From the NCBI GenBank assembly GCA_004796375.1, contig QZLA01000196.1:1-44527 (forward strand): DNA of 44,527 nt. Reading direction: 5' to 3'. Source of the stretch: Desulfobacteraceae bacterium (GTDB taxonomy: Bacteria > Desulfobacterota > Desulfobacteria > Desulfobacterales > Desulfobacteraceae). Below are positions 37,741 to 43,760 of this stretch, in pieces. The translations under genes were made by a program, and so were the position numbers. Each line of letters opens with the position of its first letter. Within the stretch, counting starts at the first letter, position 1. Below the pieces are notes generated by a model. It was not told where the DNA came from. It searched no databases and saw only the letters and a program-made list of their open reading frames with translations.

Positions 37741-37902
37741 ATGAACAATTGGGTATGTGAAAAATGCGGATATAAACTGGAAGCGGACACACCACCGGAA
37801 GTGTGTCCATCCTGCAAAAACAAATGTGCCTTTGTTGACAACACCTGCTATACGCCGGATTGTGCAGGCCAGCCTGTTGATGACAGAATCGGCAAAAAAT
37901 AA
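37741..37902 (+). CDS. Rubredoxin-like small protein (RCKP-type)
   Basis: A 53-residue protein with CxxC pairs at Cys6/9 (WVCEKCGY, a rubredoxin-style knuckle) and Cys22/25 (VCPSCKN), so it can hold one iron or zinc ion. The short C-terminal tail carries three more cysteines (29, 36, 41). It resembles the rubredoxin-like domains found at the ends of rubrerythrins and the stand-alone RCKP-type proteins of sulfate reducers. A very strong AGGAGG lies five bases before the ATG, suggesting high expression. First gene of the redox operon; likely an electron carrier or donor to the rubrerythrin-type proteins downstream. Confidence 0.85.
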   Translation: MNNWVCEKCGYKLEADTPPEVCPSCKNKCAFVDNTCYTPDCAGQPVDDRIGKK

Positions 37903-37913
37903 CGGAGGTTCCC

Positions 37914-38126
37914 ATGGCTAATAAGAAATATGGAATAAAAACCGCCTGCCCCCAGTGCGGATGCAGCTCTGTGACCCATCTTTCCAAAGAGGAGATCCAG
38001 AAACGGTTCCCCAATGTTCCCAATGTGGAACTTGAATGTGGAGAGTGTATGCTGATGTATGAAACCAGCATGGAAGAAGCCTGCCCCGAATGGGATGACG
38101 AATGCCGTATGGAGGGCAAGGAGTAA
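37914..38126 (+). CDS. Small zinc-ribbon-like protein, unknown function
   Basis: A 70-residue protein that I do not recognise. It has CxxC pairs at Cys12/15 and Cys42/45 separated by 26 residues, as in a zinc ribbon, plus Cys17 and two cysteines in an acidic tail (57 and 64, CPEWDDEC). GGAGG lies five bases before the ATG, 11 bases after the rubredoxin-like gene, so the two are translated from one mRNA. Cysteine spacing differs from rubredoxin, so I would not call it an electron carrier on sequence alone. Confidence 0.75.
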   Translation: MANKKYGIKTACPQCGCSSVTHLSKEEIQKRFPNVPNVELECGECMLMYETSMEEACPEWDDECRMEGKE

Positions 38127-38145: not shown

Positions 38146-38190
38146 ATGAGACAGAAATGCACCTTTGTATCGTATAAGGAGATATCATGA
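38146..38190 (+). CDS. Possible 14-residue leader peptide before the selenoprotein gene
   Basis: A mini-ORF of 14 codons with AAAGGAG just upstream (rather close, about 3 bases) and a stop that overlaps the start codon of the next gene in an ATGA arrangement. It contains one cysteine codon (residue 5). Its ATGA junction could couple translation to the selenoprotein start, although that gene also has its own AAGGAG. It may be chance. Confidence 0.25.
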   Translation: MRQKCTFVSYKEIS

Positions 38191-39017
38191 AGTGGAAACA
38201 GTTTTTCACTCCGGTTAAATCCATCGATTCCCTTCAGGCAAAGCGCTATATCAATGAACACCCGGGTGATGAATACACTTTGCTGGATGTGAGACAGCCA
38301 TCTGAATACCGGGAAAGCCATCTGCCCGGTGCAACCCTGATCCCGCTGCCCGAACTATCTGACAGAGCCCATGAGATGGCGCTGTCCAAGCCGGTTCTGG
38401 TATATTGAGCCACTGGCGGACGCAGCCGGGTGGCTGCGCAACTGCTTTCAGGGAAAGGGTTTGATACGGTATTGAATGTCAGTGGCGGCATTAAGGCGTA
38501 TCAGGGAAATATTGCCATCGGCCCGGAAGATCAGGGTGTGTACCTGTTTACCGGAAAGGAATCCATAGAAGACACTCTGGTGACGGCCTATTCACTCGAG
38601 CAGGGCCTGAGAGAGTTTTATCTGTCCATGGAAAAACAGGCGGATAATGATCAGGTCAAAGAGGTATTTTCCACCCTGGCAGACATTGAAATCATCCATC
38701 AGGACAACCTTTTGGAACAATACCGCACCATGACCGGAGTGGATACCACAAGGGAAGACATGGAAAAAAAGGTGAAAACCACCCTGTTGGAAGGCGGGAT
38801 GACCACTGAAGAGTACATGGCACTGTTCAATACAGATCTTGGATCCAGCACAGAAGTGGTCTCGATGGCCATGTCCATAGAGGCCCAGGCCCTTGATCTT
38901 TATGAGCGGTCAGCCCGACGGGCCAAGGATGAGCAAACGGTCAGCATGCTTAATAAAATTGCCAATGAGGAAAAGCACCACCTTGAGCACCTTGGCAAAC
39001 TGATGGATTCACTCTAA
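38187..39017 (+). CDS. Candidate selenoprotein: rhodanese domain (Sec74) fused to a rubrerythrin-type diiron domain
   Basis: Read through the TGA at 38406-38408, the gene gives 276 residues. Residues 1-110 form a rhodanese domain: YTLLDVRQPSEYRESHLPGA, then PVLVY, the TGA, and ATGGRSRVAAQLL, which ends NVSGGIKAYQG. In rhodaneses the catalytic Cys stands exactly where the TGA is (C-x-x-G-G-R-S), so I assign Sec74. Residues 130-276 are a ferritin-like four-helix domain with diiron ligands Glu138, E168xxH171, Glu232 and E262xxH265. The frame is clean on both sides, AAGGAG lies five bases before the ATG, and a hairpin fitting a SECIS follows the TGA. Standard gene calling would give a truncated 73-residue rhodanese and a separate protein. 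A nonsense mutation is the alternative. Likely role: sulfane sulfur, selenium or peroxide chemistry. Confidence 0.85.
38421..38438 (+). promoter_or_regulatory. Candidate bacterial SECIS element
   Basis: A perfect 7-bp stem, CGCAGCC (38421-38427) and GGCTGCG (38432-38438), six pairs of it G-C, closes a GGGT tetraloop. The loop begins 19 bases after the TGA. Bacterial SECIS elements lie just 3' of the UGA inside the coding region, with G and U in the apical loop at this distance, for SelB to bind. Confidence 0.7.
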
Positions 39018-39074
39018 ATTCAACACATCCGAATATCGGCTGCTGCCTTTTCGGATATGCTGTCAGGAGATGCT

Positions 39075-40193
39075 ATGGGACGAAAACTTGTATTGGTCGG
39101 GGGCGGGCACGCCCATATGGTCACACTGGCAAACCTGGACCATTTTGTTGAAAAGGGTCATGAGGTGACGGTCGTTGGGCCCTCGGAATACCACTACTAT
39201 TCAGGAATGGGGCCCGGCATGCTGGGCAGGACCTATTCACCGGATGATATCCGTTTTGCCACACGGTTTCTGGTGGAGAAAAAAGGCGCCCGTTTCCTGA
39301 AAGATAAAGTGACTCATATCAATCCGGATGCAAAAACCGTTCATCTTGAATCCGGGAACTCCCTGGCCTATGATGTCCTTTCGTTTAATGCCGGAAGCTA
39401 TGTCCCCAGGGACCGGATCCGTGGTGATGACGCTAATATCTTCAGTGTAAAACCGATTGAGCGCCTGATGCAGGCCCAGGAGAAACTCCTGGACCTGATG
39501 TCCCAAAAAGAGATTATTGTCAGCATTATCGGTGGCGGCCCCTCCTCTGCTGAAATTGCCGGAAATGTCTGGCAGCTTTCCCGGCAAGCCCATACCCATG
39601 CGCCCCAAATCCAGGTATTTGCTGGGAAAAAGTTTATGACCCGGTTCCCTGAATCGGTCCGGAGCCGGATTCTGAATATCCTTAAAAAACGGGATATCAT
39701 CTTCCATGAAGGTGCGTATGTCGATCAGGTAACCGATAGCACGGTGACCCTTGAAAACGGCCGGACATATAACACTGACTTCACCTTCCTGGCGCTGGGG
39801 GTGAAGCCGTCCACCATATTTGAAAGGTCAGGCCTGCCCACAGGTCCTGACAAAGGGCTTCTGGTGAACTCGTTCCTACAGAGCACACGTTACCCGGATA
39901 TTTTCGGTGGTGGGGATTGTATCCATTTTAAAGAGCAGCCGCTGGATAAGGTCGGGGTTTATGCCGTCCGGCAGAATCCGGTGTTGTACCACAATCTCAT
40001 GGCCCGCCTGGAAAACCGGTCACTCATGCCGTTTGACCCGGGCCCGGATTACCTCTTGATCTTCAATGTCGGAGGGTCAAAAGGTGTCCTCAAAAAACAC
40101 GGCCTGGTGTTTGGCGGGCGTCTTGCTTTCAAGATCAAGGATTATATTGATGTAAAATTCATGAAGAAATTTCAAGCGTATGAGCAGACCTGA
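39075..40193 (+). CDS. FAD/NAD(P)-dependent oxidoreductase of the SelD-associated (NDH-2/SQR-like) type
   Basis: A 372-residue flavoprotein of the NDH-2/sulfide:quinone reductase superfamily. It opens with KLVLVGGGHAHMVTLANL (FAD-binding GGGHAH), a second Rossmann motif IIGGGPSSAEIAGNVW near residue 155, and FGGGDCIHF near the C-terminus (FAD ribityl/phosphate). The GGGHAH opening, with HYYSGMGPGML, is what I recall of the oxidoreductase fused to the N-terminus of selenophosphate synthetase SelD in many bacteria. SelD itself is absent here. AGGAG lies five bases before the ATG at 39075, preferred to the ATG at 39057. There is no SQR-type catalytic cysteine pair that I can see. Its product may deliver or accept electrons for the selenoprotein upstream. 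Confidence 0.85.
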   Translation: MGRKLVLVGGGHAHMVTLANLDHFVEKGHEVTVVGPSEYHYYSGMGPGMLGRTYSPDDIRFATRFLVEKKGARFLKDKVTHINPDAKTVHLESGNSLAYDVLSFNAGSYVPRDRIRGDDANIFSVKPIERLMQAQEKLLDLMSQKEIIVSIIGGGPSSAEIAGNVWQLSRQAHTHAPQIQVFAGKKFMTRFPESVRSRILNILKKRDIIFHEGAYVDQVTDSTVTLENGRTYNTDFTFLALGVKPSTIFERSGLPTGPDKGLLVNSFLQSTRYPDIFGGGDCIHFKEQPLDKVGVYAVRQNPVLYHNLMARLENRSLMPFDPGPDYLLIFNVGGSKGVLKKHGLVFGGRLAFKIKDYIDVKFMKKFQAYEQT

Positions 40194-40213: not shown

Positions 40214-42358
40214 ATGAAATCTAAACCGGTTGTTAAACTACTGATCGTTCTGCTTGCCGGGCTGCTGTTCTGGGCCTTTTTTGCATTTGACCTCAACACC
40301 TATCTGTCGCTTTCCGAGCTGAAAGCGCGGCTGGACAGTTTCAATGCCTTTTACGAGAGTCACCAATGGCTCACCATGATGATCTACCTTGGCATTTATA
40401 TCCTGGTCGTGGCCCTCTCTCTTCCCGGAGCTGTCATCATGACCCTTGCCGGCGGCGCACTTTTCGGACTGTTTACCGGCACCATCCTGGTCTCCTTTGG
40501 AAGTACCATCGGTGCAACCCTGGCATTTATATTCTCACGGTACATATTCAGAGACATGGTCACCCGAAAATTCGGAAGCCGGCTGGAAGCGATCAACCGC
40601 GGGATTGAGAAAGAGGGGTCACTCTATCTGTTTACCCTGCGCCTGGTGCCGATTTTTCCCTTTTTCATCATCAACCTGGTCATGGGGCTGACCTCAATGA
40701 GTACATTCTCGTTCTACTGGGTCAGCCAGCTGGGGATGCTTCCGGGGACCATTGTCTATATCAATGCCGGAACCGCACTGGCTTCCATAGATTCCTTGAA
40801 CAATATCCTCTCCTTTAAACTCCTGTTCTCTTTTGCACTGCTGGGTATTTTCCCCATCCTTGCCAAAAAAGTGACCGGCCAGATCAAAAAACGCAAGGTT
40901 TATTCGGGGTTCAAGGTGCCGAACAAATTCGAGTACAACCTGGTGGTCATTGGTGCGGGCTCCGCCGGCCTTGTGGCGTCCTATATTGCCGCCGCAGTAA
41001 AGGCAAAGGTTGCTTTAATTGAAGCCCATAAAATGGGTGGGGACTGCTTGAACACCGGGTGTGTTCCAAGCAAGGCCATACTTAAAAGTGCCAAAGTGGC
41101 GGCCTTGATCCGGAATGCATCCAAATACGGCATCTCAGCATCCTCGCCGGATGTCAATTTTGAGGATGTGATGACCCGGGTCAAATCGATCATCAAGCAG
41201 GTGGAACCCCACGATTCCGTAGAACGGTATACCGGCCTGGGTGTTGACTGCATCAGCGGATATGGCAAAATACTCTCACCTTTTGAGGTCCAGGTGAATG
41301 ACCGGGTCCTGACCACCCGGAGTATCATCGTTGCCACGGGCGCCTCACCCCTGATACCGGACCTTGAAGGGCTGGATCAGGTGAAGTACCACACATCTGA
41401 TACCATCTGGGATATTGAAAAACTTCCTGAACGAATGGTGGTTCTGGGCGGTGGGCCCATCGGGTGTGAACTGGCACAGGCATTTTCCAGGCTCGGATCC
41501 AAGGTCACCATTGTACAACGGGGGCCCCAGATCCTTAAACGGGAAGATCCTGAAGCAGCCAAACTTGTGCTGCAGCAGTTTGAGGCAGACGGTATCCGGG
41601 TGCTCACCGGGCATGCCGCCAAAATGATCGATACCCGTGATGGTGACTCTGCACTGATCTGCACCCATGACGGGCAGGAGGTCAGGATTGACTTTACGGA
41701 CATCCTGATTGCACTTGGCCGGACTCCAAATATCAAAGGATTCGGATTGGAAGACCTCGGGGTTGAACTCAAATCCGGGTCCGTGATCGAAACCAATGAA
41801 TTCGCCCAGACCAATTTTCCCAATATTTTCTGCAGCGGTGATGTAAAAGGGACCTATCAATTTACCCATACTGCCGCCCACGAATCCTGGTATGCCTGTG
41901 TCAATGCGCTGTTCGGTTCTTTCAAAACGTTCCGGGTGGATTACTCGACCATCCCCTGGGCCACCTATACCGAACCGGAGGTGGCCCGGGTGGGTTTAAA
42001 TGAAACCCAGGCCAAGGAGATGGATATTGACCATGAGGTCACATGGTTTGATATTGCAGAGCTTGACCGGGCCATTGCCGACTCTGAAAACCGCGGGTTT
42101 GTCAAGGTAATCACTCCTAAAGGCAAGGATAGAATCCTCGGGGTGACCATCGTCGGCAACCATGCCGGGGATATAATTGCCGAATATGTGCTTGCAATGA
42201 AACACCAACTCGGTCTAAATAAGATTCTGGGGACCATTCATATTTATCCCACCATGGCGGAAGCCAATAAGTATGCTGCCGGTATGTGGAAAAAGAATCA
42301 TGCCCCGGAAAACCTGTTGAAATATGTGGAAAAATTCCACGCCTGGAGAAGACGATAA
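40214..42358 (+). CDS. TVP38/TMEM64 membrane domain fused to a mercuric-reductase-like flavoprotein
   Basis: A 714-residue fusion. Residues 1-235 form a TVP38/TMEM64 (VTT, DedA-like) membrane domain with about six hydrophobic segments and the family motifs LSLPGAVIMTLAGGALFG and RLVPIFPFFIINLVMG. From about residue 240 there is a class I pyridine nucleotide-disulfide oxidoreductase: VVIGAGSAGLVAS (FAD), the redox-active CLNTGC (Cys278 and Cys283), VVLGGGPIGCELAQAF (NAD(P)) and FCSGDVKG. At the C-terminal base position it has YPTMAE (Tyr678), not the His of lipoamide dehydrogenases, and no vicinal CC tail as in MerA. So it is probably not a true Hg reductase; a disulfide, polysulfide or quinone-linked reductase anchored to the membrane is more likely. 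Such fusions are known in databases. Confidence 0.9.
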   Translation: MKSKPVVKLLIVLLAGLLFWAFFAFDLNTYLSLSELKARLDSFNAFYESHQWLTMMIYLGIYILVVALSLPGAVIMTLAGGALFGLFTGTILVSFGSTIGATLAFIFSRYIFRDMVTRKFGSRLEAINRGIEKEGSLYLFTLRLVPIFPFFIINLVMGLTSMSTFSFYWVSQLGMLPGTIVYINAGTALASIDSLNNILSFKLLFSFALLGIFPILAKKVTGQIKKRKVYSGFKVPNKFEYNLVVIGAGSAGLVASYIAAAVKAKVALIEAHKMGGDCLNTGCVPSKAILKSAKVAALIRNASKYGISASSPDVNFEDVMTRVKSIIKQVEPHDSVERYTGLGVDCISGYGKILSPFEVQVNDRVLTTRSIIVATGASPLIPDLEGLDQVKYHTSDTIWDIEKLPERMVVLGGGPIGCELAQAFSRLGSKVTIVQRGPQILKREDPEAAKLVLQQFEADGIRVLTGHAAKMIDTRDGDSALICTHDGQEVRIDFTDILIALGRTPNIKGFGLEDLGVELKSGSVIETNEFAQTNFPNIFCSGDVKGTYQFTHTAAHESWYACVNALFGSFKTFRVDYSTIPWATYTEPEVARVGLNETQAKEMDIDHEVTWFDIAELDRAIADSENRGFVKVITPKGKDRILGVTIVGNHAGDIIAEYVLAMKHQLGLNKILGTIHIYPTMAEANKYAAGMWKKNHAPENLLKYVEKFHAWRRR

Positions 42359-43357: not shown

Positions 43358-43403
43358 GTTTCCTTAGTTATTCACTGTTGTGTAACCGAAAATGGAGGAT
43401 ATC

Positions 43404-43760
43404 ATGAACCTGAATGATATAAAAAACAATACGCGTCTGATTAATTCCGTGGACTGGGAAATGACCCCTGAAGAAGCCATCGCACTTCATCTCGAATGGG
43501 GTCCCTTGCGCTCCCAGACCTACTATAACTCCCGGGATAATGACAATGAAACCATATACTTTGTTGTCAGCACCTGGCAAAAATCTCCGGTGGTCCGCCT
43601 GGTCCGAAGAAAGGGATTTGATTCTGAAGAACTGGCAGAATTTGAACTGCCTGAAAAACTTAAAAAAGAATTCCTTAGAGGGATCGGCCAGTATAAAGGG
43701 GTTTATGCGGTAGAAGGGCCGATCAAAGACTGGCTTAAAAGAGAGTTAAGGGTGCATTAG
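43404..43760 (+). CDS. Conserved small protein resembling the DVU0772 family
   Basis: A 118-residue cytoplasmic protein. Its opening (LNDIKNNTRLINSVDWEMTP followed by EEAIALHLEWG) is what I recall of the DVU0772 family, a protein conserved in Desulfovibrio and other sulfate reducers; its function is unknown. No catalytic or metal motif is evident. The ATG at 43404 is chosen because GGAGG lies five bases upstream; an in-frame ATG at 43392 overlaps that site. It is preceded by a sigma-54-type promoter and followed by a terminator, so it is probably a single-gene unit controlled by a sigma-54 activator. Confidence 0.75.
   Translation: MNLNDIKNNTRLINSVDWEMTPEEAIALHLEWGPLRSQTYYNSRDNDNETIYFVVSTWQKSPVVRLVRRKGFDSEELAEFELPEKLKKEFLRGIGQYKGVYAVEGPIKDWLKRELRVH

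Follow-up and report, generated by a model that had tools for sequence, protein, structure and literature searches.

Does a rhodanese gene whose catalytic codon is a TGA encode one long selenoprotein, and if it does, what would such a protein do for the cell? The question is raised by a locus in a contig of 44,527 nucleotides from a Desulfobacteraceae bacterium (QZLA01000196.1), and this whole stretch is referred to here as the window. A frame of 276 codons spans the locus, with one in-frame TGA and no further stop before its TAA (Table 1). The first-pass annotation, which had described it as a rhodanese with Sec at the catalytic position fused to a ferritin-like diiron domain, was exact in its coordinates, the single TGA and the 276 residues. 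It had also expected ordinary gene calling to split the gene, with a restart at 38430. That is what is found in the list of open reading frames of at least 80 amino acids under translation table 11, where the sole entry in the frame of the fusion runs from a GTG, 38430-39017, and has 195 amino acids.

Table 1. Features of the fusion locus and the genes next to it, in positions of the window.
Feature	Position	Strand	Basis or remarks
53-aa RCKP rubredoxin-like protein	37741..37902	+	RUBY_RBDX above cut-off; RCKP model below
70-aa Cys-rich small protein	37914..38126	+	One weak NCBIfam match, below cut-off
Shine-Dalgarno-like AAGGAG	38176..38181	+	Sequence inspection
Sec-rhodanese/diiron ferritin-like fusion gene (predicted)	38187..39017	+	276 residues, ATG at 38187, Sec at 74, TAA stop ending at 39017
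Rhodanese domain, PF00581	38268..38504	+	Residues 28-106, Pfam match
In-frame TGA, predicted selenocysteine	38406..38408	+	Residue 74, rhodanese catalytic position; aligned homologues
bSECIS-like hairpin	38421..38438	+	7-bp stem, GGGU loop starting 19 nt past TGA
Rubrerythrin-like diiron domain, PF02915	38571..39005	+	Residues 129-273, Pfam match
FAD/NAD(P)H oxidoreductase (Pyr_redox_2; TIGR03169-like)	39057..40193	+	Profile matches; resembles NDH-2, SQR flavoproteins

Both domains are recognized by Pfam well above the cut-offs, PF00581 with E 2.1e-17 (63.9 bits, cut-off 22.2) and PF02915 with E 5.4e-14 (53.2 bits, cut-off 22.8). The TGA lies within VY-U-ATGGRSR, the catalytic loop of the rhodanese. 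In the second domain E138, E168, H171, E202, E232, E262 and H265 are the candidate ligands of a diiron site. The AlphaFold2 model of the fusion, for which 75 of the 155 sequences described below were aligned, has a pLDDT of 93.2 and a pTM of 0.89. Among the best 60 of 63 matches of a profile search of the PDB, rhodanese and diiron chains appear in separate rows (the best stretch per chain); the best 50 of 536 Foldseek matches are rhodanese-sized, about 84-123 columns, with a best TM by query of 0.35. In these two sets there is no chain that covers both domains or is described as both.

Relatives of the fusion are common in the phylum sample. Matches at E <= 1e-30 occur in 92 of 395 sampled genomes (the source genome counted), and the family and phylum matches are a mixture, some with TGA and some without. 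After duplicates were removed, 175 loci with a frame yielded 154 distinct homologous frames, or 155 sequences with that of the window. Codon 74 is TGA in 84 of the 154 and Cys in the other 70, with no third state, which agrees with the proposal that the TGA takes the place of the catalytic Cys. Outside the 154 are nine places among the phylum matches (in G086, G126, G363, G472, G428:C3, G202, G366, G395 and G256), partial genes, some of them with TGA, and more distant matches of about 25-36% identity. A search of genome contigs provided 17 relatives, all with TGA at the aligned codon. Matches to plasmid records number 312, with none covering more than 80% of the query. One Sec-form homologue (L032) comes from a contig with the label Neomarinimicrobiota, which may point to mis-binning or to a transfer. 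In the source genome itself, the best other rhodanese-domain match (L002, 53% over residues 31-105) has TGT at the equivalent of codon 74.

Conservation extends over both halves of the protein. Both Pfam domains are present in all 75 members of a diverse homologue subset, and the rhodanese residues D34, R36, E40, G48, C/U74, G77 and R79 are identical in all 155 sequences. The diiron ligands that the first-pass annotation had read in the rubrerythrin-type domain are close to invariant as well: H171, E202 and E232 are present in 155 sequences, E138, E262 and H265 in 154 and E168 in 153. D237 and Y239 are also near-invariant. For the four close pairs of genes where dS is neither saturated nor tiny, dN/dS is 0.05-0.15 both upstream and downstream of the TGA; other pairs have a saturated dS or very small counts. 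Because many genomes have the full-length frame with a TGA at this very codon, chance or sequencing error is very unlikely, and with the exclusive exchange for Cys, an error or a pseudogene was rejected. Reassignment of TGA was likewise rejected, since 13 of 34 long open reading frames picked from the window end in TGA.

A hairpin follows the TGA closely, and the first-pass annotation had suggested a bSECIS search. Limits for a bacterial SECIS given in PMC13188914 are a stem of 4-16 bp, a loop of 3-9 nt with G in the first two positions, a distance of 16-37 nt from the UGA and a minimum free energy of -7.5 or lower. The window hairpin lies within these limits, with a 7-bp stem, the loop GGGU, a distance of 19 nt and -22.3 kcal/mol (55-nt stretch). 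Its conserved 5-bp core pairs 38422-38426 with 38433-38437. The core, GCAGC(6 nt)GCUGC, is built by codons +5, +6 and +9 counted from the TGA, and Sec forms vary far less than Cys forms in their synonymous codons at these three positions: CGC at +5 in 75/85 versus 45/70, AGC at +6 in 84/85 versus 55/70, and GCT at +9 in 77/84 versus 11/68. Counting the window gene, 77 of 85 Sec genes have the complete core, as against 9 of 70 Cys genes, so a bSECIS-like hairpin is indeed tied to the TGA forms. Restricted to genes with R, S, A and A at the four codons, the figures are 75/82 Sec versus 8/58 Cys, against an expectation from codon usage of about 0.5-0.6%. Moved to 23 other in-frame offsets, the test is passed by no more than 16/85 Sec genes (at +39 nt, Cys 0/70) and 9/70 Cys genes (at -3 nt, Sec 3/85).

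Eight Sec genes lack the complete core, and six of them (L074, L084, L091, L138, L143 and L181) have a shifted stem, GAGCC/GGCUC. The shifted register in these six genes is made of different synonymous codons. Counting either register, the hairpin is found in 83/85 Sec and 10/70 Cys genes; in two Sec genes (L064 and L072) neither register is intact. Other measures are less selective. Loose bSECIS criteria (the 5-bp version with no energy term) are passed by 84/85 Sec genes, yet also by 30/70 Cys genes and 28% of synonymous shuffles, and by themselves are unspecific. Overall folding energy is ordinary (z -1.02, with 30 of 200 shuffles folding equally well), and mean z values of -0.69 for Sec and -0.2 for Cys forms, with control stretches down to -0.53, do not discriminate. 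Rfam at gathering scores has no matches within the window.

Sec and Cys forms are interspersed on the tree. In a quick maximum-likelihood tree, from which column 74 was omitted and in which some branches are long, no fewer than 19 changes between Sec and Cys are needed, 11 of them forced by well-supported branches. Comparison of 11 independent tree pairs gives, on average, 7.8 pairs with the hairpin on the Sec side, 0.1 opposed and 3.1 with no difference (sign test, median p 0.008, range 0.002-0.18). On this tree the hairpin tends to accompany the Sec/Cys state. Some Cys genes, among them L100, L102 and L103 with TGT at codon 74, still have an intact hairpin, as expected of relics of a recent change from Sec to Cys.

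The source genome, a 5.6 Mb draft that is 93.5% complete, has the machinery for Sec. The four genes that the first-pass annotation had named for checking are all present above their cut-offs: tRNA-Sec (selC) with 76.5 bits against a cut-off of 47, and, above curated cut-offs, selB with 368.9, selA with 612.9 and selD with 373.7 bits. Among 14 control genomes the cut-offs are exceeded in five for selC, two for selB, one for selA and two for selD. The selD gene has one in-frame TGA itself (its frame reads AGUAAK). In a listed subset of host genomes, selA was found in 74 of 77 with the Sec form, the three without a match being incomplete drafts (78-92%), and in 64 of 67 with the Cys form. Since selA is present in 64/67 of the latter, Cys forms reside mostly in Sec-capable hosts. 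The first-pass annotation had expected Cys at residue 74 in non-Sec organisms; the Cys forms exist, but their hosts are for the most part not of that kind. Taken together, the TGA/Cys exchange, the Sec-linked hairpin, its association with Sec on the tree and the presence of selA, selB, selC and selD make this almost surely a real selenoprotein, and 38187-39017 very probably encodes it with Sec at residue 74. SelB and tRNA-Sec would decode UGA codon 74, guided by the hairpin at 38421-38438, and the predicted product of 276 residues would consist of a Sec-catalytic rhodanese followed by a four-helix, rubrerythrin-like domain that holds a diiron site.

Rhodanese-like selenoproteins have a history of their own, as the first-pass annotation had stated. 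Five forms are listed in the accessible part of PMC13188914. Forms 2 and 4 have the motif UxxG, and form 5 is a double selenoprotein resembling a rhodanese/DsbD fusion; form 2 (PF00581, example MBM9537886.1) is credited there to Zhang and Gladyshev 2005, and the example for form 4 is MCY3690685.1. Earlier forms are listed in the part seen of PMC9312934. In a table of PMC5029168, as its columns were interpreted from the portion available, a Sec 'sulfurtransferase homologous to a rhodanese-like protein' is counted in 24 organisms. A sulfurtransferase and a rhodanese-like domain are both named among the selenoproteins of a marine deltaproteobacterium (PMC8318568, in part), and Sec sulfurtransferases are tabulated in the available sections of PMC1088965 and PMC2398784. 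Sec rhodaneses already form a recognized group of predicted selenoproteins, so what looks undescribed is the fusion, together with its scale, and nothing more. The words rubrerythrin and ferritin do not occur in the main text, as available, of PMC13188914, PMC9312934, PMC8318568 and PMC2398784. A literature search of titles and abstract openings, with most subscription papers beyond reach, found no description of a Sec rhodanese-diiron fusion.

Forms 2 and 4 are like the window protein in having Sec in UxxG (here U-A-T-G). In the source as available they are listed by their rhodanese domain only and could be compared with the fusion by description, not sequence, and one of these UxxG forms may be the same family. 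The earlier statement that the fusion is uncharacterized agrees with the titles and abstract openings searched, and is less secure as regards the listed forms. Form 3, NF041203 (rhodanese-related (seleno)protein), is also a rhodanese selenoprotein but has a different motif, CxU; the window protein scores 21.1 bits against its cut-off of 115 and is not a member. In NCBIfam the window protein has 21 matches, all of them below the cut-off of the model concerned.

The diiron domain has solved relatives in the Rubrerythrin / COG1633 ferritin-like proteins (PDB 1vjx, 2fzf and 2oh3 among them), with a profile match over residues 124-275 and two ExxH pairs. Unlike rubrerythrin, the window protein has this domain behind a rhodanese and lacks a rubredoxin domain. 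It does not match the true rubrerythrin model NF045767 at E 0.01 and is not a member, and 3 of 75 homologues match that model at E <= 0.001. Fusions of rhodanese to a metal or flavin redox domain are exemplified by the persulfide dioxygenase-rhodanese fusion BpPRF (5ve3) and the NADH-dependent persulfide reductase 3nta, although their redox domains differ from the diiron domain of the window fusion. Both presumably have Cys in place of Sec. C314 and C531 mutants are named in the titles of PDB entries.

The FAD oxidoreductase at 39057-40193 is a likely operon partner. Among homologues of the fusion with enough sequence around them, 62 of the 66 closer ones have its counterpart next door, and so do 6 of the 80 that are more distant. 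Of 147 loci with enough sequence, 38 also carry a homologue of the RCKP rubredoxin-like protein encoded upstream, a possible electron carrier. The 70-aa Cys-rich protein, which has no Pfam family at E 0.001, has one in 29 of 147, exclusively with Sec forms. Rubredoxin or rubrerythrin frames lie within about 4.3 kb of the fusion in 27 of 155 loci, a count that has no background rate and includes many shorter loci.

Farther downstream in the same direction, 40214-42358 encodes a VTT membrane domain fused to a MerA/lipoamide-dehydrogenase-like flavoprotein, and 16 of the 86 sufficiently long loci have a homologue of it. A DVU0772 family protein is encoded at 43392-43760 (homologue in 15 of 154 homologous loci); a link of DVU0772 to PerR was considered and dropped, as DVU0772 appears in none of the papers listed by a literature search. 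At another locus (L199) a cysteine desulfurase, NifS-like by eye, is fused to SelD in one frame of 737 residues without TGA.

What the selenoprotein does can be stated only tentatively. The reading we favour, with somewhat short of even confidence, is a redox-stress enzyme of anaerobes. The selenol, which may be a more reactive acceptor as the first-pass annotation had proposed, would accept sulfane sulfur or the oxygen of a peroxide, the diiron site would reduce peroxide, and electrons would pass from NAD(P)H to the adjacent FAD oxidoreductase and on to the fusion, perhaps via rubredoxin-type proteins.

It is rather unlikely that the protein is instead a reductase of sulfane sulfur (persulfide or polysulfide), comparable to a split NADH-dependent persulfide reductase, in which Sec takes the sulfur, the FAD partner frees sulfide and the diiron domain is structural or stores iron. 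The solved rhodanese relatives do include those of persulfide reductases and of the persulfide dioxygenase fusion, and SQR and the CoA-disulfide reductases are among the flavoproteins that the FAD partner resembles. However, conservation of the candidate diiron ligands roughly equals that of the rhodanese active site, the rubredoxin and rubrerythrin neighbours at the 27 loci hint at oxygen defence, and the FAD partner has a single invariant Cys across 74 homologues.

A role in selenium handling, with the rhodanese carrying selenium as perselenide for selenophosphate synthesis, is improbable. It would fit the resemblance of the FAD partner to TIGR03169, a model that takes its name from a domain found N-terminal to SelD (263.8 bits, short of the cut-off of 310), and the weak matches of the rhodanese domain, below cut-off, to the selenouridine synthase MnmH. 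Against it, selD is found in 345 of 395 genomes of the phylum sample and in 63 of 67 Cys-form genomes; the co-occurrence of selD with the fusion says little because selD is nearly universal, and on the same grounds a specific tie of the fusion to selenium metabolism was rejected. The sel genes of the source genome sit on other contigs. Nor was a link of the FAD partner to SelD through fusion borne out, as the sole long-frame SelD fusion inspected, that at L199, is NifS-SelD and not an FAD oxidoreductase. That the gene is no selenoprotein at all (a pseudogene, a sequencing error, or two products with a restart at the GTG) is exceedingly improbable. The 195-aa frame of the table 11 list speaks for it; the shared TGA with its exclusive Cys exchange, the Sec-linked hairpin and the constraint downstream of the TGA speak against it.

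The redox-stress enzyme may belong to a widespread, unnamed selenoenzyme family of Desulfobacterota-type anaerobes. In this broader proposal, which is less likely than not, a Sec rhodanese and a diiron peroxidase site would act together and couple sulfane sulfur to the removal of peroxide. Some members would work with an NAD(P)H-FAD partner, and the family would have switched between Sec and Cys more than ten times, in most cases retaining its SECIS hairpin with Sec and losing it with Cys. In such a protein a sulfur-transfer fold and a diiron site would be joined in one polypeptide. Ordinary ORF calling cuts such genes in two where the TGA stands, and the family is common in the phylum. Its Sec and Cys forms are densely mixed and some of the Cys genes retain a hairpin, which makes it a natural experiment on why and how selenium is exchanged for sulfur.
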